Under the pieces are notes generated by a model, which saw nothing but the letters and a program-made list of their open reading frames with translations, was not told where the DNA came from and searched no databases. Both the position numbers and the translations under genes were made by a program. This document shows positions 11,901 to 34,391 of a DNA stretch of 35,810 bases, one piece after another (within the stretch, counting starts at the first letter, position 1; each line of letters begins with the position of its first letter). The DNA lies in IMG/VR virus record IMGVR_UViG_3300020442_002641, positions 1 to 35,810 of that record; one strand, written 5' to 3'. This stretch comes from a virus.

Positions 11901-14900
11901 AGAGAAGTAGATTGCTCATCTTCCACAAATGTTAATGTATCAAATAACAGCATTCAGATCCCAGATCACTACTTTGTATCTGGTGAGGAAGTTCTGTATA
12001 GAGTTGCTGGAACTGGTTCTTCTAATGCAATTGAAATTGCAGAAACAAGTTTCGTTGGAGTAGGAACAACTACAAAACTTCCTGGATCCGTTTATATTAT
12101 TAAACTCAACGAATCTGAGATTCAGTTGGCTAGAACTGCTGCAGAGGCATTGTCATTCGTTCCTACCCCAATTGACATTACTTCAGTCGGTATTGGCACA
12201 TCTCACAGTTTCACTTCGAAAAAACAAAACTCCAAAGTTGTTGTTGCTATCGATAATGTTATTCAATCTCCAATCGTTTCTACTGCTATTACCGCAAGTT
12301 TGGCAAAAGCAGTAACAACTACGGAAAATGTACTTGTATTCTCTGGAATTACATCCTTCTTCGGAACGGATTTGATTCAGATTGATGATGAAATCATGAG
12401 AATTCAATCTATTGGTGTTGGCGGAACCTTTAATGTAAGAGTAAGAAGATCTTGGATGGGAACTGGTCTTGCTGGTCATGGAACAGATGCGAAAATTACC
12501 AAGATTGGTGGAAACTACAATATCATCGACAGTACGATTAATTTTGTTGATCCTCCATATGGTCAAACACCATTATCCACTTCAACAAATAAGCCATCAG
12601 AAAGAGACTGGACTGGCATAACAACTGGTTCCAAGTTCCAAGGAAGATCCTTCATGAGATCTGGTGTACAAGGATCTGATGAGGAATCTTACACCAAGAA
12701 CTATATCTTTGATGATATTTCCGAAAGTTTTGATGGTCAAACTCGTAAATTTACCCTTACATCAGCGGGTTCGAGTCTGTCTGAGATAGCAGAAAATAAT
12801 GCTATCATCACTATAAATGATATTTTCCAAGGTCCAGGTCTAACCAGAGATTATACTTTAATTTCTGATGAAACTGTTGGTATTACATCTATTCAGTTCA
12901 CTGGAACTGCAAGTTCGGTAGGATATGATGTCAATAATGCATCTATTCCTGTTGGTGGCATAATTGTTTCTGTTGGATCCACCTTCGGTTTCGGATTACA
13001 AGATCTAGTTTCTGCTGGAGGAACTGCTGTTGTTTCTGCTGCAGGAACAATTGCATCGATCAGTATTGGAAACAGTGGATCTGGTTATAGAGCAGGAATC
13101 CAAACAGTTGTAAACGTAGGACTTTATACGTCTTCCACTGGAACTTACAGTATAACCAATATTGGAACAGCAGCAGTTAGCAATGGTCACATCGTCAGTG
13201 TTGCCATTACTAATCCAGGAACAGGATATACCAGTTCCAATGTTCCATATGTCGTATTTGATGATCCATTATCTTATTCTGATATTCCTCTCGTATACAG
13301 TTCACAGTCAACTCCAGGGGTAGGAACACAGGCGAAGATTAATGTTGTTGTTGGCGCTGCTTCCAGTGTTATTGATTTTGAACTCACTAATCTTGGATAT
13401 GGATATGGTAATGGAGAAATTCTTACTATTGAAACTGGAGGACTTGCAGGAATTCCAACCGATCCAACCAAACCTTCCAGTGAATTCCAAATAACAATTC
13501 AAGAAGTCTTCAATGATAGATTTGCTGGTTGGTCAATTGGACAACTCCAAATAATCGATGATGTATCATCTCAATTTAATGGATCCGATGTTATCTTCCC
13601 AATTAGAGTTGCTGGAGATTTGATCTCTATCAGATCTGCTAGAGGTTCTAATATTAATGTTGAAGCAACATTATTGGTATTTGTCAATGATGTTCTCCAA
13701 GTTCCAGGAGAAGGTTATTTCTTCCCTGGCGGTAGTTTGATTGAATTCTCTGAACCACCTAAGGCAGGAGATACTGCTAAGATTCTATTCTATAAGGGAA
13801 GTGGAGATGTTGACGTTGTTGATAGAGATATCGTCGAAACCGTGAAGGTTGGAGATGATTTGACAATCAATTACAATCCTGATATTGGACAAACTTTAAT
13901 TTTCCAAGAAGAAGAAAGAACAGTGACACAAATCAAATCTATTGATTTTGTTGGCACAAATCCATACTTCGGACCAGGAAATACTAATAATTCTAAGATG
14001 CTTAGACCAGTTACTTGGTGTAAGCAAACTGAAGATAAGATTATTGATGAAAAGGAAGTTGGAAAGGACAGAGATCAATACGAAGCGAATATATTCCCTG
14101 CTGCATATGTAACACAAACAGTAGGAACTGGTGTAACAATTGTCTATGTTGATACATTAAGAACTCTGTTTAATGCTGCAAATGAAAATAATGCATCTCT
14201 TCTCTTCCAGAAGAAGATCAATATCCTATCTCAGGATTCATGCACTTCTGCCGCTGCTACAGCAACAGTTTCTTCTGCTGGAACTGTAACTTCATTCACA
14301 ATCAGCGATGGAGGATCTGGATTTGCATCTATTCCTTCCGTAACTCTTTCTAATCCAGTCGGAACTGGATCAACTGCATCTGCTACAGCAACTATTCTCA
14401 ATGGTTCTGTAGTTTCTATTGCGGTCTCCAATCCTGGATCTGGTTATGCATCAACAAATCCACCAAAAGTTCTTATTCAAGATCAATCATCTGTATTAGA
14501 AACAGATGAGGTTCAAAGTTTCAGTGGAGACTATGGAACTATCGTTGGATTTGGTCTTTCTACTACTGGTTTGACCACAAAAGTGATCTTTGATCTCTTC
14601 ATTCCTACAGATTCGGACTTGAGAGGAACTCACTATGTTTCTTCAGCAAGTACGATCAGTGGAATTAGCACTGGTGACTATTTCGTAGTCAGAGACTCTA
14701 ATATTGGTCTTGCGGTTACTCACTTTGAAACCAGAAGAACTAACAGCACTAAGATCGGTATTTGCAAGTCTCACTTTGATGGCATATACCAGGTAAATAA
14801 CTTCCATGTAACATACAAACCTGTTGCTGGAGTTGGTACCGTATCTGTAGTAAGAGTATTCTGCAATGTTGCTGGAATTGGTTCTTCCAGTCTTACAAAT

Positions 14901-17414: not shown

Positions 17415-18965
17415 ATGGCTGCAATAATCACTGATCAGATAAGAATTTTAAATGCTGGTAATTTTGTTTCTGGAGTAACAACCGGAACAGATAGTTACTA
17501 TACCTGGATTGGACTTCCCAATCCAAGTGACTATAAAAGTGATTGGGACGTAAGTCCCCCTTCACCAAAGGATAACTTTGATGAGGAGAATGCATATTGG
17601 GATAATATGATTGCTCTGAAAAAAGTTAATGAATCTGATATCAGACAAGTAGTTACTAAGAGATTTTGGTCTTCTGGTACCAAATATGAGATGTATCGTC
17701 ATGACTATAGCAGAACTAATACTGCTAAGGTTTCTGGTGCATCGAATCTTTATTCAACTCCTTTCTATGTCTTAAACAGTGATTATAGGGTTTATATTTG
17801 TCTTCAAAATGGAACTAGTCCAGAAAACCCATCAGGAAGACCTTCTCTCGATGAACCAAGATTTACTGATTTAGAACCAAGAGCAGCAGGAAATAGTGGT
17901 GATGGTTATATTTGGAAGTATCTTTACACAATCAAACCATCTGAAATTGTAAAATTTGACTCTACAGCATATATGCCAGTCCCTCAAGACTGGGAAACAA
18001 ATGCAGATGTAGCTCCAGTGAGAGATAATGCTGTTGATGGTTCGATTAAGATCGTAACAATTACCAACAGAGGTGCTGGCGTAGGAACAGCGAACCAAAT
18101 CTATACTAGAGTTCCTATTAAGGGAGATGGTGCTGGTGCAGAATGCACATTGGTTATTAATAATGACCAGCAAGTAGAATCGGTTACAATTTCCAACCAA
18201 GGAAGTGGATACACTTTTGGAAACATTGATTTAGATGCTGGTAATGTTCCAGTTTCGACAACTAAACCACTATTCAACATTATAGTTTCACCTCAAGGTG
18301 GACACGGTGCAAATATCTACAGAGAATTGGGAGCAAGCAACGTTCTTCTCTATTCTAGAATTGAGAATGACAATGAAAATCCCGATTTTGTCACAGGAAA
18401 TCAAATTGCAAGATTAGGTCTTGTAAAGAACCCAAGAGTCTTTAATTCCTCTCAAGTTTTAACATCAGATAAAGCTAGTGCTGTTTATGCTGTTAGACTC
18501 ACTGGAATTGGATACAGCACAGCTACATTTACAGCGGATTCTTATATTACTCAAACAATTGGAACAGGAGAAACTGCTGCTGGAAGAGTTGTTAGTTACG
18601 ACCAAGTAACTGGTGTTCTTAAGTATTGGCAAGATAGAACTGTTGCAGGATTTAATACAGTAGGAACTGCACAAAGCAATCCTCAATATGGATATGACAT
18701 GTTCAGGTTTACTGCTTCTCCATCTTCGGGAGGATCTTTAAACATTAACGGAGGATCTACTACTTTATCCATTAGTACAAACTTTACGGGTATTTCGACC
18801 GTAATAAATAATAAAACCTATTACTTGGGTCAATCTTTTGTCTCTGGTGTGTCCAATCCAGAAGTTAAAAAATACTCTGGAGACATATTATATGTTGATA
18901 ATCGACCTGCCATTACAAGGTCGTCTAGTCAAAAAGAAGATATCAAGATCATTTTGCAGTTCTAA
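17415..18965 (+). CDS. gp8: Baseplate wedge subunit gp8
   Basis: The product is 516 residues; T4 gp8 has 334. The N-terminal MAAIITDQIRILNAGNF, then TWIGLPNPSDY, is typical of marine T4-like gp8. GDGYIWKYLYTIKPSEIVKF corresponds to GDGYVWEYLFEIPP in T4. The C-terminus YVDNRPAITRSSSQKEDIKI corresponds to T4 YMENRPPI...EEINILFTF. gp8 is a dimeric wedge protein that joins the gp10/gp7 and gp6 layers of the baseplate. Residues about 210-280 hold two GSGY-type repeats (ITNRGAGVGTANQIY and ISNQGSGYTFGNIDL) that account for part of the extra length. The stop at 18963-18965 is 6 nt before the next ATG. Confidence 0.92.
   Translation: MAAIITDQIRILNAGNFVSGVTTGTDSYYTWIGLPNPSDYKSDWDVSPPSPKDNFDEENAYWDNMIALKKVNESDIRQVVTKRFWSSGTKYEMYRHDYSRTNTAKVSGASNLYSTPFYVLNSDYRVYICLQNGTSPENPSGRPSLDEPRFTDLEPRAAGNSGDGYIWKYLYTIKPSEIVKFDSTAYMPVPQDWETNADVAPVRDNAVDGSIKIVTITNRGAGVGTANQIYTRVPIKGDGAGAECTLVINNDQQVESVTISNQGSGYTFGNIDLDAGNVPVSTTKPLFNIIVSPQGGHGANIYRELGASNVLLYSRIENDNENPDFVTGNQIARLGLVKNPRVFNSSQVLTSDKASAVYAVRLTGIGYSTATFTADSYITQTIGTGETAAGRVVSYDQVTGVLKYWQDRTVAGFNTVGTAQSNPQYGYDMFRFTASPSSGGSLNINGGSTTLSISTNFTGISTVINNKTYYLGQSFVSGVSNPEVKKYSGDILYVDNRPAITRSSSQKEDIKIILQF
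18046..18255 (+). repeat. GSGY repeats inside gp8
   Basis: Two units lie between conserved gp8 blocks. The first ends in GDGAGAECTLVINNDQQVES, the second in NQGSGYTFGNIDLDAGNV. They follow the same plan as the repeats in the gp7-like protein and gp14. Confidence 0.65.
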
Positions 18966-18971
18966 AAAGTC

Positions 18972-21900
18972 ATGCCACAAGAAATTAACCTTAACGTATC
19001 ACCATACTTCGACGATTTTGATTCGGGAAAGGAATATTACAAGGTACTTTTTAAACCAGGTTATCCCGTTCAAGCAAGAGAACTGACAACCCTTCAATCT
19101 ATTCTTCAGAATCAGATTGAACAATTTGGACAATCTTTTTACAAAGAAGGCGCTAAAGTAATCCCAGGTCATTTTGCATATAATAAGTCTTATTATGCGA
19201 TAAAAATTGACAATATTTCAAATGGAATTCCTGTAGATGCATATCTCACAGAACTGATTGGACTCAAAATCACAGGTAAAAGTTCTGGAGTAACAGCAAC
19301 CGTTTCTGGATTCTTATTTTCAGATGAATCGGAAACTTCTAATGCTACTTTATACGTAAATTATCTCGGTTCAAGTACCACTGATAATTCTTCTCAGTTT
19401 TTCCGTGATGGAGAAGATCTATTTGCAAGCGACACAATTATTTCTGGATCTCTCGCTACTCCTGTAATTGAACCTGGAGAAACATTTGCAACTACAATTT
19501 CCAATGGATCAAATTGTACTGGTTCTTCCTTTTCAATATCGGAAGGAGTATATTTCATAAGAGGAAGATTTGTTTCTGTTAGAGATGAAACACTTGTTCT
19601 TGATCAATATACAAACAATCCTTCTTACAGAGTTGGTCTGTATGTCAATGAAGAGATTGTAAATGCTGATGAAGATGATACATTAAACGATAATTCTCAG
19701 GGATTTAATAACTACTCCTCCCCTGGCGCAGATAGACTTAGGATTACTGTATCTCTTTTCAAAAAACCATTAGACGATACAGATGACGCAAATTTCGTAG
19801 AATTAGTCACCATTCAAGATGGTGTTTTAAGATCTCAAGAGAAAACAGAACTTTCCAACAGAGTTGGAGATGAAATTGCTAGAAGAATTCATCAAGGAAC
19901 TGGAGATTATGTTATTGATCAATTTTTAGTATCAGCAAAAGAAACTTTAAATGATCTGCAAGGAAATGGTGGAATCTATGAAGAAGGACAACTCACCGCA
20001 AACGGAGGAGTCCCATCACCTGACCTTGCAACATATCAAATTTCCCCAGGTGCAGCAGTAGTTAAGGGATTTGATATAAAGACTATTGCTTCAACCTTTA
20101 TTGATTTTCCAAAAACAAGAACTACGAAGACTTTAGAGAATCAATCAATAATTTACAATACTGGTTCTACTCTTGTTCTCAATAGAGTATTTGGATCTCC
20201 TACCATTGGTGTGGGAAATACTTATGTTTTGAGTTTAAGGAGTGAAAGAGTTGGTCTTGGATCCACTACTCCTGGAGGAAAAGAGATTGGATTAGCAAGA
20301 GTATATGACTTTAAATTAGAATCTGGAACATATGAAAGTGAAAATACAAATCTAAACAGATGGGATATTTCCTTATTCGACGTTCAAACTGTAACTGAAA
20401 TTAATTTAAATGAACCGATTACTCTGTCGGTTCCAACTTTCGTAAAAGGAAATAAGAGTGGTGCTACGGCATTTTTAAACAGTTCTGTTGCTGCTGGAAC
20501 TGCTCTAACAGTATATCAAACAGCTGGAGATTTCCTCGTAAATGAAACCTTCTCCTTCGATGGAATTTCAAATACTAGAGTAGCAACTTCAGTAACCTCA
20601 TATGGAATGTCAGACGTTAAGTCTGTTTATGGTGTAGTTGGAGCAGCAAATTCTTTCACTGCAGATGTTATACAAACACCTACATCGACAATTGGAATTG
20701 CTACTATTAGTGCAATTGACGTGCCAACAGGGTTTAGTTCAATTCGTTCATCAAACGAATTTTTCCCAGGAACAATATCAGTCGATAATCTTGTAAGATT
20801 TACTGATACATCTGTTCCAGATCCAATTATCGCTAGAGTTGTTAGTGTAGGAACTACTCATGTAGTAATTGCAGGAGTCACTACAGTAACAGGAATTACA
20901 TCCAGTAAACTTCCAAGTTCTACTCTTCAAGTAACAGATTTAACATATCTCACAACAAAATTAGGGGATTCTTCTGATAATACTCTCTATACCAGACTTG
21001 CTAAGAATAACATTTCTAACATTTCTATTGATAAGACCAATATAACAGTTAGAAAAACTTATACTAACCTTGTAATTGATTCCACCAAAAAATTATCAAC
21101 AGTCGTCGATGCTGGTGAAGATCTTAAGTTCTTACCTTTTGACGAAGAAAGATACACACTTTTCAGATCTGACGGAACATATGAAGTTCTCACTGCTGAT
21201 AAATTTGAATTTAGTTCTGATGCGAAGGAACTTCAGATTTATAACTTAAGCGGTGCTAACTCTGGAGCAACTTTAGTAGCTACCCTCACAAAAACAAAAG
21301 TAAAGGAAAAGGTAAAGAGAAAAAATAGAGTAGGATCTTTTGTAGTCTCATATTCAAATAATTCTGCTTCTGGCGTAGGAAATACCTCTCTTGATGATGG
21401 ATTGACATATGGAAATTATCCATATGGAACAAGAGTTCAAGATAAGGAAATTTCGTTGAATGTTGGTGATGTTACCGATGTTCTCGGAGTTTATGAGTCA
21501 TTTGGATCTTCAGATCCATCTGCACCTCAAATGACATTGACAACCATTTCTGGTCCAAGCAGCAAAACTTCTGATTTAATCATCGGAGAAGAGTTTGTCG
21601 GACAGACTAGTGGTGCTGTTGGAATGGTTGCAGAAAGAATAGACGATTTGACTATTTCTTTCATAAGTTTGAATGAAGTTGGATTTACTGAAGGAGAAAC
21701 TGTAATTTTTGCTGAAACTGATATTCAATCGGTAGTTACAAATTTATCTGCTTCAAGTTCTAATATTTCTGGTGAGTATACTTTCAAAAATGGTCAAACT
21801 GGCACTATTTTAGGGCATAGTTCTATCATTAGATCAGAAAAGTATTCTGCTCCAACAAGAAAACTCAAAATTTACTACACAAACGGATTCTTTGAGTCTT

Positions 21901-24900
21901 CCGATGAAGGAGATTTTGTAACAGCAAATTCTTACAAAGAATTTGATTACACCGATGATATTCAGTTTATTGGAAACTCCAGAAATACTGATATTATTGA
22001 CATTAGACCAAAAGTTTCTGATTATACGGTTTCTGAAGGATCAAGATCTCCTTTAGAATTCCATGGAAGAACATTTGGAGCTACTGGAAACAGTGCTGCA
22101 AACGTACTTGCTTCAGATGAATCGATTACATTAGATTATTCTTACTATCTTGGCAGAATTGATAGAATTTTCTTATCTAAAGATGGAAAATTCCAAGTTA
22201 AGTATGGAATTCCTTCAGATAAACCAGAAATGCCTGTAGGTGTTGATGAATCTATTGAAATTTGTCAGGCAAAAATACCTCCGTATCTCTACGATGTAAG
22301 AAACGTATCATTTAATTTCTTACAGTATAAGAGATATACTATGAGAGATATCAAGAGACTTGAAGATAGAATCAGAGGTCTCGAATACTATACTACTCTT
22401 TCTTTATTGGAAACTGACACCAATAATATGTTCATTTCCGATGATGAGGGACTGAATAGGTTTAAGTCTGGATTCTTTGTAGATAATTTCTCAACATTAC
22501 AACCACAAGATACTACTAGACAAATTAAAAACTCAATTGACTATAGTGCAAGAGAGGTAAGACCATCTCATTACACTACATCAATCGATCTTCAACCATA
22601 TCCAACGAAATTGCCTTCCGAGGATTTAAGATTTAAGCAGCCTACTGGAATTAACATTAGAAGAGGAGAAGATATTGTAACTCTTGACTACACCGAAGTT
22701 GAGTGGTTAAGTCAACCATATGCTACTAAATCTGAAAGTGTAACTCCATTTATCCTTAACTTCTGGGAAGGAACTATTACATTAACTCCTTCTTCTGATG
22801 TTTGGGTCGATCAAAAGAGAATCGATGCCAAGATTATTGAAGCTCAAGGAAATTATAATGAAGTTCTGGAAAACGCAGTAGAAAATCTTGGAATTGATCC
22901 TCAAACTGGTCTTGCTCCAGTTGTTTGGAATTCTTGGGAAACTTTCTGGACAGGAAGACAAGTTATTGGTGGTGAAAGAACTGTAACCAGAAGTTTTGGT
23001 GGAGAATGGAGAGGAAACTTGGGTGGAGGCAATAGAATTGCTGCATTTGGAACAAGAACCACTCAAGTTGTTAGAGAACAAATTCAAGAAACCATTGATA
23101 CTGGATTTAAGACCAGAACAGGCACACAACAACAGTTTGTGGAGCAATGGGATAATACCTCTGTTGGTGATAGAGTCGTAAGCAAAGACTTAATCACAAG
23201 CATGAGATCAAGAAACATTACCGTTGACGGTAAGAGATTCAAACCAAAGACAAGAGTTTATGCTTTCTTTGATGGAGTTGATGTAACTAAGTTTGTTACT
23301 CCAAAACTTCTTGAAATCGAAATGCTTTCTGGCGCTTTCCAGACAGGAGAAAATGTCGTTGGAACTGTCAGAGCGACAGGTCTCGGTGAAGATAAAGACA
23401 AGTCTAAACCATATATTAAGTTTAGATTGTGCTCTCCAAATCATAGAGAAGGAGAATTCAATGCTCCAACAGTAGTTTATCCGATTAATCCGTATAATGA
23501 TGAGGCAATGCCTACGACATATTCGGCAACATCGTCTCTTCTCAATGTAGATACATATTCGCTGTCTAATCAAGTAGATGGAGATTATTACGGATTTGCT
23601 GAATCTGGAATGATATTAAAAGGAGAAACTAGCGGTGCTCAAGCAGTAATATCAAATACAAGATTGATTAGTGATATTGCTGCAAATGTGCAGGGAAGTT
23701 TCTTCATTCCAGATGGAGATGTTATCGGATTCCCTCGTTTTGAAACTGGTTCGAAGACTTTTGAACTCAGTAGTGACAATGCTAATAACAGAGATTTGGC
23801 AACTACTCATGCAGTCGAAACATTCGAATCTTCTGGAACCTTAGAAACTGTTCAGGAAAATATTGTTTCTGTCAGAAATGCTAGAATTGAAACTATTGAA
23901 ACATCTCAAACAGAAGACGTAAGAAGAACCACAGGAACAGTTGTCGTAGATTCTCAAGTTCTTTCTCAAACACAAAGACAAGTTATTATTGGTTATTATG
24001 ATCCTCTTGCACAAACTTTCTTTGTTGAAGATGAGACTGGAATACACTTATCAAAGGTAGATCTTTTCTTCAGAACCAAGGACGATGCAGACATTCCTGT
24101 CGGCATTCAACTCAGAACTACTAAACTTGGAACTCCGACTCAAACTATTGTTCCTCTGTCTGAAGTTTACTTGGATCCTGCTAATATCAATGTTTCTAGT
24201 GATGGATCAGTTCCAACAACGTTTACATTCCCAGCTCCAGTTTATCTGGACGGTCAAACAGAATACGCTCTTGTAGTAAGATCTGATTCAGCAAAATATA
24301 GCGTATTCATCTCCAGAGTTGGTGAAAATGATTTGATTAGCCAAGAATTCGTTGCACAGCAACCTTACTTGGGATCCCTATTCAAATCACAAAACGCTGC
24401 TGTTTGGGAACCTTCGCAGTGGGAAGATCTCAAATTCAATCTCTATAGAGCTGAATTTGTGGAAAGTGGAACAATTGATTTCTTCAACCCAACTCTTTCT
24501 GTTGGAAATGGACAAGTTGCTCCTCTAACTCCAAACCCACTTTCTTTAGAGTCTAGAAGAATTAGACTTGGAATAACTTCTGCAGTCCTGGATACCAGTC
24601 TAACATTTGGAAATACTATCTCACAGAAGAATTCGAATGCAACTGGTAAGTATGTTGGTGGAGCAGGAATTTGTACTGGTTCACTTCAGGTAATCAATCC
24701 AGGTATAGGATATACTCCTTCTGCTGCTGATGGTGGAAACTTTACTTTCACTGGAGTTGCATTAACATCTATCACTGGAAACGGAATTAATGCAACAGCA
24801 GATATTCTAGTATCTGGTGGAATTATCCAAAGTGCAACTATCGTAAATGGTGGAAACGGATATGTTTCTGGTGATGTAGTTGGCGTATCTTCCCTTGGAA

Positions 24901-26435
24901 ATACACCAGCAGGTTCTAATCTGAGACTTTCTATTGTTTCTATTGCAAGCACAACTGAACTGATTCTCGAAAATGTGCAAGGAGACTTCAAAACTGGAGC
25001 AGGTTCAACTATTCAATACCTCAACAATAGTTTAGTCACCGTAGATCTTAATGCTGATAGTGAAGGTGGAGTAGAAGCAAATCTGGTTACAGTCGAAAAT
25101 ACTGGATTATCGTTCAAGGTAAATCACAAAAATCATGGAATGAACTTCGAAGGAAATAAAGTTATTATTTCCGATGCACAATCAGATGTAATTCCAACTA
25201 AGTTGACAGCTCCATATTCTATAGATTCTACTGATCCAATTTCAGTAGAAACAGCATCTAATTTTGGATTGTTTGAGAATGTTGGTGTTGGAACGACCAA
25301 TAAAGGTTATGTGATTATTGGTGATGAGGTTATTTCTTATACCAGCACATCATCTAATCAAATTGGTGGAGGAATTGTTAGAGCAATTTCAGGAAACAGC
25401 AAAAATTATCCTGTAGGAACTCCTGTTTATAAGTATGAACTTGGCGGTGTTTCTCTCAGAAGAATCAATAAACCGCATTATGTATCATCCTCTAACCTTG
25501 AGTTTGATTCTTATTACATTGATCTTGATATGTCCACCAATGGTACGGACAGAACTGTAGGAACAAGTCATCCTAAGTTATATCTTGGAGAACAAAAGTC
25601 TGCAGGTGGAAGATCAGCAAAAGCAACACAAAACATTGCTTATGAACTTATTTCTCCAATGATTCAAAATTCGACTGTAAGAGGAACTTCTCTGAACGCT
25701 CAGATAAGAACAGTTACAGGTCAGAGTATTGATGGATCTGAAAGAACATTTATCGATAAGGGATTTGAAAGTGTATTGCTTAATCAAACAAATTATCTCG
25801 ATAGTCAGAGACTTATTTGTTCCGAAGCAAATGAAAATGAATTCTTGACAACTCTTCCAAATAACAAATCTTTCAACATGAGAGTTCTTCTTGGAACTAC
25901 CGATCCAAGAATCAGTCCTGTAATAGATCTGCAAAGATGTAATGCGATTCTGACAACAAATAGAATCAATGCTCCTATAACGGATTATGCTAATGATCCA
26001 AGAGTAAATACCATCGACGAAGATCCAAACTCGTTCCAATATCTTTCCAAAGAAAACAGACTTGAGACTCCAGCATCTTCTATTAAGATTATTTTAGATG
26101 CTCATGTCAACGTTTTCAGTGATATTCGTGCTTTCTATGCAGTTTCAAATGAAGAAAAGTTTGAACCTGTATTCACTCCTTTCCCAGGATGGAACAATGT
26201 GAACGGAATTGGCAATGTTATTGATCCAGCTTTAAATGATGGATCTCCTTATCAGTTTGTAAATAAATCATCATCCTTAGGATTTACTCCAGAGGACCTT
26301 GAATATAAGGAATATCAATTTGAAGTAAATAACTTGCCAGACTTTAGATTATACAGAATTAAACTCGTATTGTCTTCAACAAATCAAGCGTATCCGCCAA
26401 GATTCAAAAACTTACGAGTAATTGCCCTTGCTTGA
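18972..26435 (+). CDS. Large virion structural protein with N-terminal DUF4815 (2,487 aa)
   Basis: The N-terminus (EINLNVSPYFDDFDSGKEYY, then VLFKPGYPVQARELTTLQSI, then GQSFYKEGAKVIPGHFAYN) is the DUF4815 signature (PF16075), a domain of large phage tail proteins. Other landmarks are LKRLED-type helix DIKRLEDRIRGLEYYTTLSL (about residue 1122), MRSRNITVDGKRFKPKTRVY followed by AFFDGVDVTKF (about 1410), DPLAQTFFVEDETGIHLSKV (about 1677) and a C-terminal domain ending FRLYRIKLVLSSTNQAYPP. Shared modules are GE-G-TSGA units (about 21575-21840), one GSGY pair (24685-24895) and NHGM/IDDE units (25105-25470). It lies 6 nt after gp8 and ahead of the neck genes, so a baseplate or fibre-attachment role is likely. 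I know no T4 equivalent. There is no truncation and no hydrophobic segment. Confidence 0.8.
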   Translation: MPQEINLNVSPYFDDFDSGKEYYKVLFKPGYPVQARELTTLQSILQNQIEQFGQSFYKEGAKVIPGHFAYNKSYYAIKIDNISNGIPVDAYLTELIGLKITGKSSGVTATVSGFLFSDESETSNATLYVNYLGSSTTDNSSQFFRDGEDLFASDTIISGSLATPVIEPGETFATTISNGSNCTGSSFSISEGVYFIRGRFVSVRDETLVLDQYTNNPSYRVGLYVNEEIVNADEDDTLNDNSQGFNNYSSPGADRLRITVSLFKKPLDDTDDANFVELVTIQDGVLRSQEKTELSNRVGDEIARRIHQGTGDYVIDQFLVSAKETLNDLQGNGGIYEEGQLTANGGVPSPDLATYQISPGAAVVKGFDIKTIASTFIDFPKTRTTKTLENQSIIYNTGSTLVLNRVFGSPTIGVGNTYVLSLRSERVGLGSTTPGGKEIGLARVYDFKLESGTYESENTNLNRWDISLFDVQTVTEINLNEPITLSVPTFVKGNKSGATAFLNSSVAAGTALTVYQTAGDFLVNETFSFDGISNTRVATSVTSYGMSDVKSVYGVVGAANSFTADVIQTPTSTIGIATISAIDVPTGFSSIRSSNEFFPGTISVDNLVRFTDTSVPDPIIARVVSVGTTHVVIAGVTTVTGITSSKLPSSTLQVTDLTYLTTKLGDSSDNTLYTRLAKNNISNISIDKTNITVRKTYTNLVIDSTKKLSTVVDAGEDLKFLPFDEERYTLFRSDGTYEVLTADKFEFSSDAKELQIYNLSGANSGATLVATLTKTKVKEKVKRKNRVGSFVVSYSNNSASGVGNTSLDDGLTYGNYPYGTRVQDKEISLNVGDVTDVLGVYESFGSSDPSAPQMTLTTISGPSSKTSDLIIGEEFVGQTSGAVGMVAERIDDLTISFISLNEVGFTEGETVIFAETDIQSVVTNLSASSSNISGEYTFKNGQTGTILGHSSIIRSEKYSAPTRKLKIYYTNGFFESSDEGDFVTANSYKEFDYTDDIQFIGNSRNTDIIDIRPKVSDYTVSEGSRSPLEFHGRTFGATGNSAANVLASDESITLDYSYYLGRIDRIFLSKDGKFQVKYGIPSDKPEMPVGVDESIEICQAKIPPYLYDVRNVSFNFLQYKRYTMRDIKRLEDRIRGLEYYTTLSLLETDTNNMFISDDEGLNRFKSGFFVDNFSTLQPQDTTRQIKNSIDYSAREVRPSHYTTSIDLQPYPTKLPSEDLRFKQPTGINIRRGEDIVTLDYTEVEWLSQPYATKSESVTPFILNFWEGTITLTPSSDVWVDQKRIDAKIIEAQGNYNEVLENAVENLGIDPQTGLAPVVWNSWETFWTGRQVIGGERTVTRSFGGEWRGNLGGGNRIAAFGTRTTQVVREQIQETIDTGFKTRTGTQQQFVEQWDNTSVGDRVVSKDLITSMRSRNITVDGKRFKPKTRVYAFFDGVDVTKFVTPKLLEIEMLSGAFQTGENVVGTVRATGLGEDKDKSKPYIKFRLCSPNHREGEFNAPTVVYPINPYNDEAMPTTYSATSSLLNVDTYSLSNQVDGDYYGFAESGMILKGETSGAQAVISNTRLISDIAANVQGSFFIPDGDVIGFPRFETGSKTFELSSDNANNRDLATTHAVETFESSGTLETVQENIVSVRNARIETIETSQTEDVRRTTGTVVVDSQVLSQTQRQVIIGYYDPLAQTFFVEDETGIHLSKVDLFFRTKDDADIPVGIQLRTTKLGTPTQTIVPLSEVYLDPANINVSSDGSVPTTFTFPAPVYLDGQTEYALVVRSDSAKYSVFISRVGENDLISQEFVAQQPYLGSLFKSQNAAVWEPSQWEDLKFNLYRAEFVESGTIDFFNPTLSVGNGQVAPLTPNPLSLESRRIRLGITSAVLDTSLTFGNTISQKNSNATGKYVGGAGICTGSLQVINPGIGYTPSAADGGNFTFTGVALTSITGNGINATADILVSGGIIQSATIVNGGNGYVSGDVVGVSSLGNTPAGSNLRLSIVSIASTTELILENVQGDFKTGAGSTIQYLNNSLVTVDLNADSEGGVEANLVTVENTGLSFKVNHKNHGMNFEGNKVIISDAQSDVIPTKLTAPYSIDSTDPISVETASNFGLFENVGVGTTNKGYVIIGDEVISYTSTSSNQIGGGIVRAISGNSKNYPVGTPVYKYELGGVSLRRINKPHYVSSSNLEFDSYYIDLDMSTNGTDRTVGTSHPKLYLGEQKSAGGRSAKATQNIAYELISPMIQNSTVRGTSLNAQIRTVTGQSIDGSERTFIDKGFESVLLNQTNYLDSQRLICSEANENEFLTTLPNNKSFNMRVLLGTTDPRISPVIDLQRCNAILTTNRINAPITDYANDPRVNTIDEDPNSFQYLSKENRLETPASSIKIILDAHVNVFSDIRAFYAVSNEEKFEPVFTPFPGWNNVNGIGNVIDPALNDGSPYQFVNKSSSLGFTPEDLEYKEYQFEVNNLPDFRLYRIKLVLSSTNQAYPPRFKNLRVIALA
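24685..25470 (+). repeat. GSGY, NHGM and IDDE-RG modules in the DUF4815 protein
   Basis: VINPGIGYTPSA and IVNGGNGYVSGDVVGVS are GSGY copies at 24685-24895. NHKNHGMNFEGNKVIISDAQ at about 25123 is an HGF-type start, followed by VIIGDEVISYTS and GGGIVRAISGNS as an IDDE-RG unit up to 25470. The order resembles the arrays in the gp7-like protein. Confidence 0.55.
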
Positions 26436-26853: not shown

Positions 26854-27708
26854 ATGGCACAGCCTACGACTAGAGCAACCCTGATCGAATATTGCAAGAG
26901 AAAACTGGGTGCTCCAGTTTTGGAAATCAATGTTGCCGATGAGCAGATTGATGATCTTGTAGATGATGCTATACAATTTTTCCAAGAAAGGCATTTTGAT
27001 GGCGTCTATCAAACATATTACAAGTACAAAATCACTCAATCAGATATCGATAGAGGTAGAAGTAGAGGTGGGTCCAACACTGCGGTAGGAATCGCAACCA
27101 CCACTGCATCTACCACTATTGCAGGAGATAGTTCTGCAACTACATTTACTTTTGAGGAAAATAGCAATTATCTGCAAGTTCCTCCAAATATAATTGGCGT
27201 AAATAAGATTTTTAAGTTTGATGGTAGTAATACTATCACCAATAACATGTTCAGTATTAAATATCAACTGTTCTTGAATGATATTTACTACTGGGGAAGC
27301 ACAGAACTTCTTTCTTATTCTATGGTAAAGTCATATCTAGAGGATATTGACTTTTTACTCAATACAGAAAAGCAGATAAGATTCAATAAGAGACAAGATA
27401 GACTATATTTGGATATTGATTGGGCAGGCGCTAGTGTAGATGACTATATCGTTATTGACGCATATAGCACATTGAATCCAAATGATTATTCTAGAGTTTG
27501 GAACGATTCTTTCCTCAAGTTATATTTGACATCTTTAATTAAAAAACAGTGGGGACAAAATTTAATCAAATTCCAAGGAGTTAAACTTCCTGGTGGAATA
27601 GAATTGAATGGTAGACAAATATATGATGATGCTCAAAAAGAATTGGAAGAGATTATGGAGAGAATGTCCAATACTTATGAACTTCCACCAATGGATATGA
27701 TCGGATAG
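26854..27708 (+). CDS. gp13: Neck protein gp13
   Basis: The product is 284 residues; T4 gp13 has 309. The N-terminus TLIEYCKRKLGAPVLEINVA, then DEQIDDLVDDAIQFF-ERHFDG, matches T4 '[23 protein letters not shown]...ALELYGEYHFDG'. The C-terminus VKLPGGIELNGRQIYDDAQK, then ending PPMDMIG, matches T4 'MMLPGGVTIDGQRLIEEAR...PPFGILVG'. gp13 forms the neck with gp14 and closes the DNA-filled head for tail joining. A Ser/Thr/Gly-rich stretch at about residues 68-105 (GGSNTAVGIATTTASTTIAG) is a low-complexity insertion. The gp14 ATG follows 4 nt after the stop. Confidence 0.95.
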   Translation: MAQPTTRATLIEYCKRKLGAPVLEINVADEQIDDLVDDAIQFFQERHFDGVYQTYYKYKITQSDIDRGRSRGGSNTAVGIATTTASTTIAGDSSATTFTFEENSNYLQVPPNIIGVNKIFKFDGSNTITNNMFSIKYQLFLNDIYYWGSTELLSYSMVKSYLEDIDFLLNTEKQIRFNKRQDRLYLDIDWAGASVDDYIVIDAYSTLNPNDYSRVWNDSFLKLYLTSLIKKQWGQNLIKFQGVKLPGGIELNGRQIYDDAQKELEEIMERMSNTYELPPMDMIG

Positions 27709-27712
27709 TAGT

Positions 27713-29134
27713 ATGCTAAATCCATTTTTTCAACAAGGTTCGAAAACAGAGCAAAGTTTAGTCCAAGACCTCATTAATGAGCAGTTGAGGATGTATGGTG
27801 TTGAGGTTCATTATATGCCTCGACAATTTATCACCACAAACACGGTGATTGAAGAGTTAATCGAATCTTCCTTCAAAGAAGCATATCCAATAGAAGCATA
27901 TCTAGAAAATGTAGATGGATATGCCGATAATTCTGTTATTCTTTCTAAATTTGGAATACAGTCTCAGCAAGAGATAACACTGACTATTTCAAGAGAAAGA
28001 TATGAACTCTACATAAAACCATTAGCACAACAAAATTCTCAAAATCGTCTTCCAGAGAGACCATCAGAGGGAGATTTGATTTATTTCCCATTGGGCGGAA
28101 GATTGTTTGAGATAAAATATGTGGAGCATGAAAAACCATTCCATCAGTTACAATCCACATATGTCTACACTCTAAGATGCGAACTCTTCAGACTCGAAGA
28201 CGAAGTTATTGATACTGGAATTGATACTATTGATGATGAACTCGTAGGAAGCACAAGTGTAGATGGAGTAACTCCTCTTGGTGTTTATGGAAGTATGATG
28301 ACCTTGAATATGGTCGGTGTTGCTTCCACTGCTACTGTATACACTGGTCTCGTTAATGGTGCTATCAGTGCCGTTTATATTAGCAATCGTGGTGGAGGAT
28401 ATTCATATGCTCCTCAAGTTGGATTCTCCTCTTCTCCCGAATATGGCGGAACTGGTATTGGAACAGCGATCATGATTGGTGGAATAGTTGTATGTAATAA
28501 AAATGTAGACCCAAAAGATAGATCTGTTCAAGAAATTGGTCTTATCAATCCAGGATTCGGATATACAGTCGCTCCTTTAGTTGCAGTTAAAGGTGACGGA
28601 ACTGGATTTGCAGCTACGACAGGAATAACCACATCTGGAGCAGTTGGATTTGTAACCATTACTTCTGGTGGAAGTGGTTATACCACAGTGCCGACTGTTA
28701 CATTCTCCTCTCCTGGAAGTGGAACCACCGCTGCTGCTACCGCTGTAATCAATTCTACTGGAAATGTAGAATCGATTTATCTCACTAATGCTGGTGCTGG
28801 ATATACAATAGCACCAACAATTACAATTGCGGGTGCAGGATCGACTTCATCTGGAACATTCGAACTTAATGAACTTGTTACTGGTCAAACATCAGGAACT
28901 ACAGCAAGAGTTAAGAATTGGAACAAACCAACATCGGTATTAGATGTTTATGCCGTAGATGGATCATTTACATATGGAGAAACCATAGTTGGATCCGCTT
29001 CTTCCGCAAGTTACAGGTTGAAGAGTGTTAATGAATTCCCAAGAGACGATGGATTTGCTTCTAATGCCGAAATTGAGTCTGAAGCAGATGCAATTTTAGA
29101 CTTCACAGAGCAAAATCCATTTGGAGTCCCCTAA
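27713..29134 (+). CDS. gp14: Neck protein gp14 with inserted GSGY repeat domain
   Basis: The product is 473 residues; T4 gp14 has 256. Residues 1-178 are the gp14 core: MLNPFFQQGSKTEQSLVQDL, YGVEVHYMPR, SVILSKFGIQ, REGD-like SEGDLIYFPLGGRLFEIKYV and DTGIDTIDDEL. The last 28 or so residues (EADAILDFTEQNPFGVP) are also gp14-like. Between them, about residues 179-446, lie GSGY repeats and one GE-G-TSGA unit with no T4 counterpart. gp14 works with gp13 at the head-tail connector. The insertion point between the 'DTGI--IDDEL' block and the C-terminal tail suggests a surface loop that became a decorated domain. It is followed after 33 nt by gp15. Confidence 0.95.
   Translation: MLNPFFQQGSKTEQSLVQDLINEQLRMYGVEVHYMPRQFITTNTVIEELIESSFKEAYPIEAYLENVDGYADNSVILSKFGIQSQQEITLTISRERYELYIKPLAQQNSQNRLPERPSEGDLIYFPLGGRLFEIKYVEHEKPFHQLQSTYVYTLRCELFRLEDEVIDTGIDTIDDELVGSTSVDGVTPLGVYGSMMTLNMVGVASTATVYTGLVNGAISAVYISNRGGGYSYAPQVGFSSSPEYGGTGIGTAIMIGGIVVCNKNVDPKDRSVQEIGLINPGFGYTVAPLVAVKGDGTGFAATTGITTSGAVGFVTITSGGSGYTTVPTVTFSSPGSGTTAAATAVINSTGNVESIYLTNAGAGYTIAPTITIAGAGSTSSGTFELNELVTGQTSGTTARVKNWNKPTSVLDVYAVDGSFTYGETIVGSASSASYRLKSVNEFPRDDGFASNAEIESEADAILDFTEQNPFGVP
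28247..29050 (+). repeat. GSGY repeat domain inserted in gp14
   Basis: Four units are visible: ISNRGGGYSYAPQVGFSSSP, INPGFGYTVAPLVAVKGDG, ITSGGSGYTTVPTVTFSSPG and LTNAGAGYTIAPTITIAGAG. One GE-G-TSGA unit follows (ELVTGQTSGTTARVKNWN, then FTYGETIVGSASSASYRL). The units are about 50-70 residues apart and look like regular beta repeats. Confidence 0.85.
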
Positions 29135-29167: not shown

Positions 29168-30163
29168 ATGTTTGAATACTTTTATAACGAGATTTTTCGA
29201 AAGACTATCATTGCTTTCGGAACACTTTTTAATAATATAGAAATCCAAAAAACGGATTCTAATGGCGATGTGAGCAGCGTCATTAAAGTTCCTCTTGCCT
29301 ATGGTCCAACACAAAAGTTTTTGGCAAGGATTAATCAACAGGGAGATTTGGATAGTCCAGTTGCAATGACATTGCCAAGGATGTCATTTGAATTTACTGG
29401 AGTTACTTATGATCCATCCAGAAAAGTAACAACAACACAAAGATTTCTACAAAAAGACTCAGGTGACGGAACTAAGACTAGAAAGGCATATATGCCAGTT
29501 CCTTACACAATGCAATTTGAATTGTCTATCATGTCAAAATTGAATGACGATGCATTGCAGATAGTAGAGCAAATTTTACCATATTTTCAACCACAATTTA
29601 ATCTGACCGTAGAGTTAGCAGCAGATATAAAAGAGAAGAAAGATATTCCAATTATTTTGGAAAATATCACTATGATTGATGATTATGAGGGTGATTATAC
29701 GACAAGGAGAGTTTTAACTTATACGTTAAGGTTTAGTGCTAAAACATACCTGTTTGGACCTATTCCAGATGTATCCAAGGATGTCATCAAGAGAGCTACT
29801 ATTGCTATTGGTGCTGGGGATCCAAGTCAAACAAGAGAACTTACATATACTCAATCTGTAAGAGCAATCAGGAATTACACTGGAAATGTTCTTACATCTT
29901 TGTCGGGTGATGTTAAAACCACTGACAGTATGATCACAGTAGATGATGCAACTGGAATTGAAAAAGATACTTATTTAGATATCAACCAAGAAGAAGTATA
30001 TGTAAGACTTGTAAGTGGAAATAATCTTACAGTGGATAGAGGAGTCGATGGATCGGCAATTAAATCTCACTTGAAAGGAGATAGTGTCAAATCGATTACT
30101 GCTGCCGATAATGATTTGGTACCCTTTGGAGATGACTTTGGTTTTAGTGGGAGTGTAGTATGA
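29168..30163 (+). CDS. gp15: Tail terminator / sheath stabiliser gp15
   Basis: The product is 331 residues; T4 gp15 has 272. The start MFEYFYNEIFRKTIIAFGTL, then LFNNIEIQK and VPLAYGPTQKFLAR, and the DRVLTYTL-like block TTRRVLTYTLRFSAKTYLFG fit the gp15 family. That family caps the tail tube and sheath and docks the tail onto the neck. From about residue 246 the protein continues with an IDDE-RG unit (SMITVDDATGIEKDTYLDIN, then LTVDRGVDGSAIKSHLKGD). This resembles units in the gp7-like and DUF4815 proteins and explains the extra length. The stop overlaps the gp16 start by 4 nt (ATGA). Confidence 0.92.
   Translation: MFEYFYNEIFRKTIIAFGTLFNNIEIQKTDSNGDVSSVIKVPLAYGPTQKFLARINQQGDLDSPVAMTLPRMSFEFTGVTYDPSRKVTTTQRFLQKDSGDGTKTRKAYMPVPYTMQFELSIMSKLNDDALQIVEQILPYFQPQFNLTVELAADIKEKKDIPIILENITMIDDYEGDYTTRRVLTYTLRFSAKTYLFGPIPDVSKDVIKRATIAIGAGDPSQTRELTYTQSVRAIRNYTGNVLTSLSGDVKTTDSMITVDDATGIEKDTYLDINQEEVYVRLVSGNNLTVDRGVDGSAIKSHLKGDSVKSITAADNDLVPFGDDFGFSGSVV
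29904..30130 (+). repeat. IDDE-RG module at the gp15 C-terminus
   Basis: Residues about 246-321 follow the plan 's-itVdda-gi--dtyl-I--E-v-v--v-gn-ltVdRG-dgs---H--gd-v'. It is appended after the gp15 core, whereas copies in the gp7-like and DUF4815 proteins are internal. Confidence 0.6.
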
Positions 30164-31337: not shown

Positions 31338-34300
31338 ATGCCGGCACCCGTAATTCAATTTAAGAGGGGCATTTTATCGAATCTTCCTGGATTGCAGGTT
31401 GGTGAACCGGGTTTTACTACTGATAGTTACGATCTTTATGTCGGTCTATCTTCCGCACTAGCAACTAATAAGTTTGTTGGTTCTCATAGATATTGGACGA
31501 AAGATACCGCTACAACAGGAAGCGGAGTAAATTTAGTAGAAGGTACCGATAATGGTACCAATTATATAACCCTAAAGTCCCCAGATTCTCTAGCAGGGAA
31601 CGTAGTTTATGTATTGCCTGGTACACAAGGCGATGCATCAACAGTTTTAACGAACGATGGAGCAGGAAATTTAACCTGGTCTTCTTCTTCGGTAGACTTC
31701 ACTTCAATCACTACCTTTACTTCATCTCAAGAAGTAACCTTAGGAAATCCAGACACGGGTGCTCTTCAAGTTGATGGTGGTCTTGGAGTTAATAAAAGTG
31801 TTACTGTTGGTTCTGCTATCAGCGTTTCTGGAGAGGCACTTTTCGCAGGCATCACCACATTTGTTAGTGCTGTAGAAATATCCGATAGTGTAGAGGTTGG
31901 ATCAGCGGTAACAATTGCCGATTACGGGGTACATGCAACTGGAGTTGTAACTGCAACTTCTTTTGAGGGTGCAGGCGGCGAATTGACTTTAGGAAGTCCC
32001 ACAGACGGAAGTCTTACTGATGGGGCACTCACGCACTTTACTGGAAGTACTAAGATTGTCAATAGTATTGATGATCTGAATGAACTTGCACTAAACATCA
32101 TTAAAAACACTGCTGTTACTAATGTTGATTTTAGTGGTGTAAGCACAACTGGAGGATCTCCTCTAACTCCCACATTAACAATCACCAGTTCTGGAAATGC
32201 CAATCGATATGATATTGATTGGGGTGATGGCGATGTAACATATAATACATCAGACTCAACACCATCACATACTTATACCGAACCAGACGGCGGAACTTTC
32301 AATATTACTGTTACTGCGAAAAACTCTTCTGGTACTGGTGCTGGAAGTTCTCAGTCATCAACAAAATCTAATTTTGTTTTAGTCTATACTGGTGACCCAT
32401 CTGTTTCCTTTGCTCTTTATAGAGCGTCTAGTGGAGGAAGTGCTCTTTCTGGAAACGATCTGTATGTTGTAGAGGGTCAATCACTCTACTTGGATAATAA
32501 CACTACGAATGCAACTCAGGTTGGTTCTGGTGCAACATATACAGTCAACTGGGGCGATGGTTCTGATGTCAGTTTCGTCGCAAGTAACACTGTTGGTGGC
32601 GGCGCTAGCACTAGTGCAGATAGATTGCAGCATACATGGGCGCAAGGAACTAATAGTGGAACAGGTAGAGATACTTTAACACTTACTTTAAACACTCATG
32701 CGACCGCTGATCCAGCAGTAATTCCTGCTAGCGGAACAGTAACTCTCAAGGTTTATGATGATGCTCCTACTGCTCCAGATGGTTTAAGCAGCAAAACTCT
32801 TTCCAACGTTTCTAGTACTGGAACAAGTCCTAAACTCGCTCATGGATTTACAGACAATACTGGAGGATCGACTATTGCTGCAGGAGACGATGTAAATCGT
32901 GTAACTACTGGAACTGCGGTTGCAGGTCCAATTACTTCTTTCGCATACAACGGCGATTCTGGAACCTTAACGGCAAATGTCAACGGTTCTGGAGATGGAG
33001 ATGTAACACTTGCAAGTGGAGATCAGAGTGGAACTTACACAAGTCTGGTAGTTGATTCAGAAAGCGACTATCAACTCCTTGATTCTGGAGGTTCATCAAC
33101 TTCTTTCGCAAACAGCATTTACTATCCTGGTCTTTATAAAGGATTCAAAGCTAGAGTTTCTAAAGCGGTCTCTGGTTTGAGTGTTGGTGCTAACAGTATG
33201 CAACTATCGCATAGTGCAACTGGAAACACAAATACGGTAGAGTTTGTTAAAGACGATCTCACAGCAAATCCAACTACTAATGTCGGTAGTGCTACATTAA
33301 CCCAAAATACTGCAGGAACATTCAGATATGTTTCTGGTATTCCATATTACAATTCTGGTTCACCAAATCTAACCCTTGCTGGTGTAACTATCGATGACTT
33401 GGTTGGTCAATGTTATACAAACCAATCTAACATCGTAGAGGTCGATAGCGGAACAAATCAAGAATCTACTTCTAGTTCTGCTATTACCAGTTCTGATTTT
33501 ACTTATGCCAATATTGATGGTTCCACAACAATGTTGAATAGTGGAACTCCAAAGGCGAACACTGGAACTTCATCTGCATACGCTATTGGAAGTTTAACAA
33601 TTCCAATCACAAGCAGCAGTGTACGGACAGTCGATCGGATCAAAGTTCGTGCAAGAAACGTAAATGGAGTTGGTAATTACTCCAGTGATATTGCAACAAA
33701 CATTCAAGTTCATACTGCAGCACAATCGGGAATTTCCGAAATCGCTATTGCTGCTGCTGATGCTCTTGGTGCAACTTACGATGACGATGGCGTGAGAATC
33801 TTTGATTTCTCTGGAGAGACAACAAACACTCCAGGATTTACAACCACAACAAATTACTACACAAATAACGTTTACTCTGAATCAGCTGATCCAGGAATTT
33901 CCACTTCAACTGAGGCAGTTTTGAGACTCGGTACCATCAAACATGATGAGACAGATTATTCTTCAGGCTATCTGCCTGTAGGACCAGATCTTTCTTCTAG
34001 ATCGGGAACTCAATACTTCACCTTTGCATTCAGAAGAACGAACGTTGCTAGTTTTGATATCAACATAACATCGGCAGGAATCACTGGTCTCTTCATTGCA
34101 GCACCAGGCACGAACATCGATGCTACTAGTGGATTAAACGGTTGGTTGAGAGCAGATACCACTTACGCTGGAGCAGGTACACCTGGATCTGGCACTGGAG
34201 GTAATGGAAGTGATGGTTGTGCTTTCACTAGCGGGGATCGAATACAAGCGTCAACTGCTCTAAGTGGTGGATATACAATGACTCTCGGTGAAGAGAATAT

Positions 34301-34391
34301 GAGTAATGCTCAAGATAATGTAGTTCTTGTCCGAATTGCATTGGCGTCTGGGCAATCAGTCACAGCACTTAGCATAGGGGAGGCTTCTTGA
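31338..34391 (+). CDS. Tail-fibre-like protein with Mtd_N-like start and two PKD domains (1,017 aa)
   Basis: Residues 1-45 (MPAPVIQFKRGILSNLPGLQ, then VGEPGFTTDSYDLYVG) resemble the N-terminal domain of major tropism determinant and other phage fibres. A 'YVLPGTQGDASTVLTNDGAG' fibre motif and a GVVTATSF unit follow. Residues about 270-345 and 350-475 look like PKD domains, each with WGDG (295-298 and 405-408) and a later HTY or HTW strand. The C-terminal 130 residues contain FTFAFRRTNVASFDINITSA, GLNGWLRADT and VVLVRIALASGQSVTALSI, a tip type I recognise from marine phage fibres. The protein likely reaches the host surface. It sits 1 nt before another fibre-like gene. Confidence 0.75.
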   Translation: MPAPVIQFKRGILSNLPGLQVGEPGFTTDSYDLYVGLSSALATNKFVGSHRYWTKDTATTGSGVNLVEGTDNGTNYITLKSPDSLAGNVVYVLPGTQGDASTVLTNDGAGNLTWSSSSVDFTSITTFTSSQEVTLGNPDTGALQVDGGLGVNKSVTVGSAISVSGEALFAGITTFVSAVEISDSVEVGSAVTIADYGVHATGVVTATSFEGAGGELTLGSPTDGSLTDGALTHFTGSTKIVNSIDDLNELALNIIKNTAVTNVDFSGVSTTGGSPLTPTLTITSSGNANRYDIDWGDGDVTYNTSDSTPSHTYTEPDGGTFNITVTAKNSSGTGAGSSQSSTKSNFVLVYTGDPSVSFALYRASSGGSALSGNDLYVVEGQSLYLDNNTTNATQVGSGATYTVNWGDGSDVSFVASNTVGGGASTSADRLQHTWAQGTNSGTGRDTLTLTLNTHATADPAVIPASGTVTLKVYDDAPTAPDGLSSKTLSNVSSTGTSPKLAHGFTDNTGGSTIAAGDDVNRVTTGTAVAGPITSFAYNGDSGTLTANVNGSGDGDVTLASGDQSGTYTSLVVDSESDYQLLDSGGSSTSFANSIYYPGLYKGFKARVSKAVSGLSVGANSMQLSHSATGNTNTVEFVKDDLTANPTTNVGSATLTQNTAGTFRYVSGIPYYNSGSPNLTLAGVTIDDLVGQCYTNQSNIVEVDSGTNQESTSSSAITSSDFTYANIDGSTTMLNSGTPKANTGTSSAYAIGSLTIPITSSSVRTVDRIKVRARNVNGVGNYSSDIATNIQVHTAAQSGISEIAIAAADALGATYDDDGVRIFDFSGETTNTPGFTTTTNYYTNNVYSESADPGISTSTEAVLRLGTIKHDETDYSSGYLPVGPDLSSRSGTQYFTFAFRRTNVASFDINITSAGITGLFIAAPGTNIDATSGLNGWLRADTTYAGAGTPGSGTGGNGSDGCAFTSGDRIQASTALSGGYTMTLGEENMSNAQDNVVLVRIALASGQSVTALSIGEAS
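32150..32762 (+). other. Two PKD-like domains in the fibre protein
   Basis: The first (about residues 272-345) has YDIDWGDGDVTYN, then PSHTYTEPDGGTFNITVTAK. The second (about 350-475) has TYTVNWGDGSDVSF, then LQHTWAQGTN and DTLTLTLNTHAT. PKD folds are Ig-like spacers or binding domains in surface proteins. Confidence 0.75.

Follow-up and report, generated by a model that had tools for sequence, protein, structure and literature searches.

Optional repeat cassettes in the arm of the neck protein gp14 of marine T4-like cyanophages

When tailed phages are examined for host-facing variation, attention usually goes to the tail fibres and to decorations of the capsid. In T4, the decoration niche of the neck is held by fibritin, which is bound to domain III of gp13 (PMC12270204). 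In T4 gp14, the beta-barrel ends at residue 177 and is followed by a segment, residues 178-256, that shows disorder as long as the neck is isolated and gains order once the tail attaches and gp15 is bound; in T4 without Hfq, this C-terminal arm inserts into the clip domains of the portal (PMC12270204). Phage surfaces are already known to bear variable beta domains: T4 Hoc combines a conserved attachment part with a variable number of surface beta domains, up to 10 (PMC10385173), fibritin (wac) is a variable neck decoration that evolves by module exchange, including swapping of its C-terminal domain (PMC3797505), and the Anabaena myophage A-1(L) has neck fibres made of beads and a distal carbohydrate-binding module (PMC10966104).

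Here we describe the gp14 gene of a 35.8 kb IMG/VR virus record, the whole of which we call the window. This gp14 resembles T4 gp14 (PDB 9mkb, 9lu4-9lu7) in core fold and sequence, in gene order and in a PF near the C-terminus, but it has an arm of 295 residues at the place where T4 has 80 residues of its own, with neither of the modules, GY and GET, described below. Hoc, with its Ig folds, is a capsid protein in its own right and is nonessential, whereas the string of domains here lies inside the gene for a neck protein that is essential in T4, and has no solved-fold match. Similarly, fibritin is a separate trimeric coiled coil on gp13, whereas the variable part here is an all-beta section of gp14 itself. 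The neck fibres of A-1(L) are likewise cyanophage neck appendages, but they consist of separate proteins, gp80-gp82, in a five-fold arrangement, and are not built into the head-closure protein. Phage Ig-like insertions share with gp14 the optional beta domains in variable number, but not the fold: no Ig family was found in the window gp14 by Pfam at E<=0.01. Lastly, the same type of GY repeat occurs in cyanophage gp8 (phrog_438) and in giant virion proteins, which are other carriers; in gp14 the repeats are paired and lie in the docking arm. PHROG family 460 already takes in the repeats. A full-text search, limited to open-licence papers, for gp14 insertions, cyanomyovirus neck structure and LamG or FG-GAP domains in cyanophages turned up no account in which the gp14 arm is a site of exchangeable cassettes, which is weak evidence.

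The gp14 gene and its conserved flanks

The window contains a T4-like block of gp6, gp10-like, gp8, gp13, gp14, gp15 and gp16 genes, with gp13-gp14-gp15-gp16 in the same order as in T4. The gp14 gene (positions 27,713-29,134) encodes a head closure (neck) protein of 473 aa; gp13, gp14 and gp15, and all the features within them, are on the plus strand. By sequence, core fold and gene order, the protein is a member of the T4 gp14/head closure Hc2 family: residues 1-175 match Pfam T4_neck-protein (E 5e-26), the protein matches phrog_460 (head closure Hc2; E 6e-123), phmmer against T4 gp14 chains covers residues 2-161 (E 5e-22), and an AlphaFold2 model matches T4 gp14 in 9mkb by Foldseek (E 1.8e-11, probability 1.00). 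The T4-homologous core, delimited by Pfam, phmmer, alignment and Foldseek, comprises residues 1-178 (27,713-28,246) and by homology would include the N-loop, a helix and the beta-barrel with its stopper loop. It is ~88% identical to that of the nearest relative, L095, with a dN/dS of 0.06.

The first-pass annotation had proposed that a 268-residue repeat domain at 28,247-29,050 cleanly splits gp14 between two blocks that fit T4. The interval is exact, corresponding to residues 179-446, and its lack of a T4 match was borne out: homology to T4 ends just before it, the segment is all beta with no T4 counterpart by sequence, and no residues beyond the core have a significant sequence match in PDB. 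The fit of the flanks to T4 held only in part. Ahead of the segment, DTGIDTIDDEL is a conserved block among cyanophages, whereas its conservation in T4 is not clear. Behind it, the alignments define a conserved C-terminal tail (residues 447-473 plus stop; 29,051-29,134); in the sequence given for this tail, EADAILDFTEQNPFG, the final ..xPF(G/D) aligns with T4, with PF invariant or nearly so out to T4, but the rest does not. The conserved flanks are features of cyanophages more than of T4.

Anatomy of the arm and its neighbours

We resolved the arm into modules using HMMs for GY and GET built from 80 relatives. A linker (residues 179-195; 28,247-28,297), modelled by AlphaFold2 with partly low confidence (pLDDT <50 at residues 180-183 and 187-190), is followed by four GY units: unit 1 (residues 197-240; 28,301-28,432; 69 bits; beta strands), unit 2 (250-292; 28,460-28,588; 72 bits), unit 3 (297-333; 28,601-28,711; 48 bits) and unit 4 (337-374; 28,721-28,834; 53 bits). 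Each unit has ~40 residues arranged as strand - strand - GxGYxxxPxV, with the motif G-x-G-Y-x(2-5)-P, and in unit length, motif and beta strands the window gp14 repeats fit a GY-repeat family of cyanophage virion proteins that we describe here. The units are followed by the GET module, 62 residues with two GExxxG hairpins (380-441; 28,850-29,035; 94 bits). In the AlphaFold2 model of full-length gp14, pLDDT is ~90 over most of residues 200-440 and low again towards the C-terminus, and the arm modelled alone is all beta, with a pLDDT of 93.2 and a pTM of 0.82; the insert is thus predicted to fold autonomously, on flexible linkers. A Foldseek search of PDB with the arm-only model returned nothing at E<=0.001; weak rows for EF-Tu/eIF2-gamma, with probability below ~0.2, were discarded.

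The GET module is a constant part of most cyanophage gp14 arms, with or without GY units. GET occurs without GY in the gp14s of S-PM2 and S-CAM3 (292 aa each), P-RSM6 (291 aa), S-SM1, P-SSM3, S-SSM4 and Syn30 (308 aa each) and S-TIM4 (310 aa), with HMM matches of 57-65 bits in S-PM2, S-SM1, P-RSM6 and S-SSM4. Since GET is found in these GY-free relatives, insertion of all 268 residues as a single segment is ruled out, and the true extra segment is ~180 residues, ahead of GET. The proposed repeat domain thus stands as four GY units, with its last quarter falling outside the insertion, and the split of gp14 is not a clean one: the constant arm of cyanophages accounts for ~62 residues of the supposed insert, and, because T4 has its own arm at this place, the segment in part takes the place of T4 sequence instead of interrupting it cleanly.

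The upstream gene encodes gp13 (adaptor Ad2; 26,854-27,708; 284 aa), identified by phrog_211 and alignment. In an alignment, the segment corresponding to the fibritin-binding domain III of T4 is missing from the window gp13 and from nine named cyanophage gp13s. A Fibritin_C match was found in RB33, and among ten cyanophages there was none in nine and a weak one in MC09; this model is insensitive, having also missed the annotated wac of nt-1, and an absence of fibritin judged by the model alone is therefore weak. wac has been described as missing from cyanomyoviruses, with S-PM2 described as collarless (PMC2984593), and the plain GET-only arm of S-PM2 is consistent with that description. According to the same review, an unpublished isolate from St Kilda has whiskers (PMC2984593); this isolate may or may not be S-SKS1, the gp14 of which has four GY units. 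Elsewhere, gp13 itself has insertions: that of S-CAM9 (L003 2871-3989; 373 aa) has ~95 extra residues, and phages near MC09 (L320-L323) have gp13s of 380-421 aa. Domain gain thus seems to be permitted throughout the neck.

The downstream gene encodes gp15, the tail sheath stabiliser and, in T4, the docking partner of the gp14 arm (29,168-30,163; 331 aa; Pfam T4-gp15_tss, E 1.8e-82). Alignment revealed an optional extra domain at residues ~238-311 (29,879-30,100), preceding a conserved DDFGF tail; the domain is present in S-SM2, S-CAM9, S-SSM7 and Syn30, and absent in S-RIM2, P-SSM2 and L144. Separately, the gp15 of Pelagibacter phage Mosig (L335 4280-5878) is twice the usual size, at 532 aa, and its gp14 is short, at 272 aa, with no GET.

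Variation and history of gp14 arms

Cyanophage gp14s range in length from ~290 to >950 residues, a spread accounted for by optional cassettes. Among 291 complete gp14s (each collection scan kept its best 80 hits, such that class frequencies are not population frequencies), the arm after the core has 44 to 774 residues, in discrete classes, and the number of GY units by HMM is zero (17 gp14s), two (139), four (118), six (3), seven (1), eight (2), nine (6) or ten (5). The count is even in 284 of the 291. Odd counts occur only in long arms, probably reflecting weak units that were missed there; L029, for example, has an HMM count of nine, but ten GY..P motifs by eye. We used HMM counts in place of counts by regular expression, which gave false odd numbers by picking up the GET hairpin or the C-terminal DGILDF..NPFG, or by missing units. 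We read GY units as being gained and lost in pairs: relative to L057 and L060, units 3 and 4 and no others are missing from L051, and L045 has two more GY units.

GY pairs are not the only cassettes. The gp14s of L206, L219 and L223 are 748-758 aa long, with ~350 extra residues that match FG-GAP_2 in Pfam for L206 (E 1.9e-69) and L219 (E 5.3e-77); the arm of L223 is 87% identical to that of L219. S-SSM7 gp14 has a Laminin_G_3-like domain, with a score just below the Pfam cut-off (E 7.6e-6; 26.6 bits against 27.6), and beyond S-SSM7 and S-SSM6a this domain was found only in the gp14 of Sf-FS3. At the DNA level, near-identical gp14 genes differ by clean insertions: L125 and L135 are 96.3% identical over positions 1-725 and 97.9% identical over 1039-1746, with 312 nt extra between; L223 and L235 have flanks of 87% and 96% identity around ~1.1 kb; and L209 and L222 have flanks of 92% and 86% identity around ~340 nt. 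Together, these comparisons show that gp14 arm cassettes are modular and mobile, and they support the earlier proposal of an extra domain in a neck protein at a place that tolerates variation. In a member of the S-RIM2 group, L228, gp14 stops within the arm, shortly beyond the core, at 232 aa, probably as a result of a frameshift or an assembly error.

We built a tree of gp13, the gp14 core and gp15 (57 rows, IQ-TREE LG+G4; L228 was left out). Phages with GY units before GET, including the window, form one clade (95/95), whereas those with GY units inside GET occupy two separate positions, each beside GY-free relatives; arm variation is thus the product of more than one event. Rooting on T4-like RB33, Vibrio phage nt-1 and Salmonella phage Vi01, Fitch parsimony shows GY repeats to be ancestrally absent, with five changes, although long outgroup branches make details at the base of the tree unsure. 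Ordinarily the arm is less similar between phages than the core, as for S-RIM2 and S-SM1 (69% vs 76%) or ACG-2014j and S-PM2 (60% vs 72%). The reverse is true of ACG-2014j and S-RIM2 (arm 68%, core 41%, gp13 39%, gp15 52%) and of S-SSM4 and P-RSM6 (arm 69%, core 47%, gp13 41%), for which the simplest reading is that arms were exchanged between lineages. Judging from these comparisons, arms have been gained, lost and exchanged repeatedly. For pairs with measurable divergence, dN/dS is 0.08-0.18 in the arm and 0.03-0.09 in the core, values that are rough because some dS estimates are near saturation; the arm is under purifying selection, looser than that on the core.

Possible roles of the arm cassette

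We propose that gp14 keeps its T4 job and that the optional cassette in its arm is most likely an adhesive or protective display ring borne by the neck, a reading that we hold with moderate confidence. Six copies of the core (residues 1-178) would close the portal channel together with gp13, and the tail (447-473) would dock on gp15. Between them would lie the constant GET module and the optional cassette, consisting of two GY pairs in the window and elsewhere of zero to five pairs, an FG-GAP propeller or a LamG-like domain. By homology to T4, the cassette would sit in the late-ordering arm, between the barrel and the conserved tail. Since the channel is filled with DNA, we infer that the cassette lies outside it, in which case six copies would stand out from the neck where gp14 meets gp15. 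Recombination would gain, lose and swap cassettes while the flanks keep the joint working, and the cassettes would thereby fill the variable neck-decoration niche held in T4 by fibritin. The outward position is suggested by homology to T4 and by the DNA in the channel; like the hexameric ring and the adhesive or decorative role it is inferred, and the role is the least secure of the three, being suggested by the types of domain inserted and by the likeness to Hoc and fibritin. Many cyanophages do without a cassette, which is therefore not essential and counts against a display function, and we know of no binding activity of GY repeats. Moreover, the carbohydrate-binding module on the neck fibre of Anabaena phage A-1(L) did not bind the host (PMC10966104). 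More tentatively still, marine T4-like cyanophages, lacking fibritin, may have made a six-fold display ring of the head-closure protein, with cassettes (GY-pair arrays of a previously unseen fold, lectin-like LamG domains and FG-GAP propellers) that pass complete from lineage to lineage and serve in attachment or particle protection, such that an essential DNA gate would be evolving as an adhesin.

An alternative possibility, which we consider rather unlikely, is that the GY/GET arm is a structural reinforcement of the head-tail joint, a clamp around the contact of gp14 with gp15 or around the first ring of the sheath, with a length that follows the partner surface, such as the extra gp15 domain. 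Homology to T4 does place the arm in the segment that docks on gp15, and long gp15s accompany long gp14 arms overall: gp15 is at least 300 aa in 93 of 97 phages with gp14 arms of 280-325 residues, versus 4 of 124 with arms of ~200 residues. However, this association is largely that of one clade and is broken within it, since L124 and L144 have closely similar gp14s of 660/661 aa and yet gp15s of 335 and 267 aa, respectively; Syn30 has the extra gp15 domain and no GY repeats. These cases rule out strict coupling of the arm with the gp15 domain. In addition, propellers and LamG-like domains would be odd clamps, and phages with no insert assemble anyway.

Autonomously folding beta modules might instead be promiscuous passengers that are tolerated and spread among virion proteins with little function in the neck, an idea already put forward for certain Ig-like domains of phages; this seems to us a good deal less probable than a display ring. 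Indeed, the module types of the gp14 arm are used elsewhere in the virion, since they recur in other virion proteins: the gp14 repeats match a 4099-aa protein of the same window (44% identity over 84 aa, E 8e-15) and the window gp8 (E 6e-10), and propellers like that of L219 are found in a structural protein of S-TIM5 and in a protein of S-MbCM6, annotated as gp8 in one record. The presence of cassettes is also patchy among close relatives. Nonetheless, the arm is under purifying selection, and hundreds of phages preserve its reading frame and repeat motifs, which argues against mere passengers. A role in assembly fidelity, with a bulky arm blocking the wrong insertion of the gp14 C-terminal arm into the portal that Hfq prevents in T4, is very unlikely: the cassette is located in the very arm that misinserts in T4 without Hfq (PMC12270204), but S-PM2, S-SM1 and pelagiphage Mosig exist without it, nothing ties arm size to host Hfq, and swapping with lectin- or propeller-like modules would not be expected. 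Lastly, GET is widespread in cyanophages and part of the arm is thus old within the family, but it is highly improbable that, contrary to the earlier proposal of an insertion, the segment is ancestral to T4-like phages, carried by all relatives and lost in T4, given that the repeats are absent from RB33, nt-1, Vi01, Mosig, C48C1, P-RSM6, S-PM2, S-SM1, S-CAM3 and the MC09 clade, that the rooted parsimony state is "none", and that GY pairs lie at two different arm positions.

Whichever role it has, the cassette is an exchangeable part of a connector protein that is essential in T4, and the marine viruses in question are a very abundant group. If the arms bind something, the neck would be an overlooked site of interaction; if they bind nothing, gp14 would clearly exemplify how a joint under pressure can tolerate added domains. 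A practical consequence is that repeat cross-hits can blur annotation among gp14, gp8 and the giant virion proteins.

Several other proteins of the window merit description. The 4099-aa virion protein (2952-15,251) has several GY units, around residues 3353-3440 and 3765-3843, which resemble the gp14 units more than any others in the window do, and gp8 (17,415-18,965; 516 aa) contains GY-like units and also hits phrog_460, the family of gp14. A second giant protein (18,972-26,435; 2487 aa) has three DUF4815 stretches (E 5e-58) and weak GET- and GY-like matches. Downstream of gp16, a 1017-aa protein (31,338-34,391) matches Mtd_N (major tropism determinant N-terminal) above the Pfam cut-off and, in its C-terminal half, phrog_8578, and is a possible receptor-binding protein.
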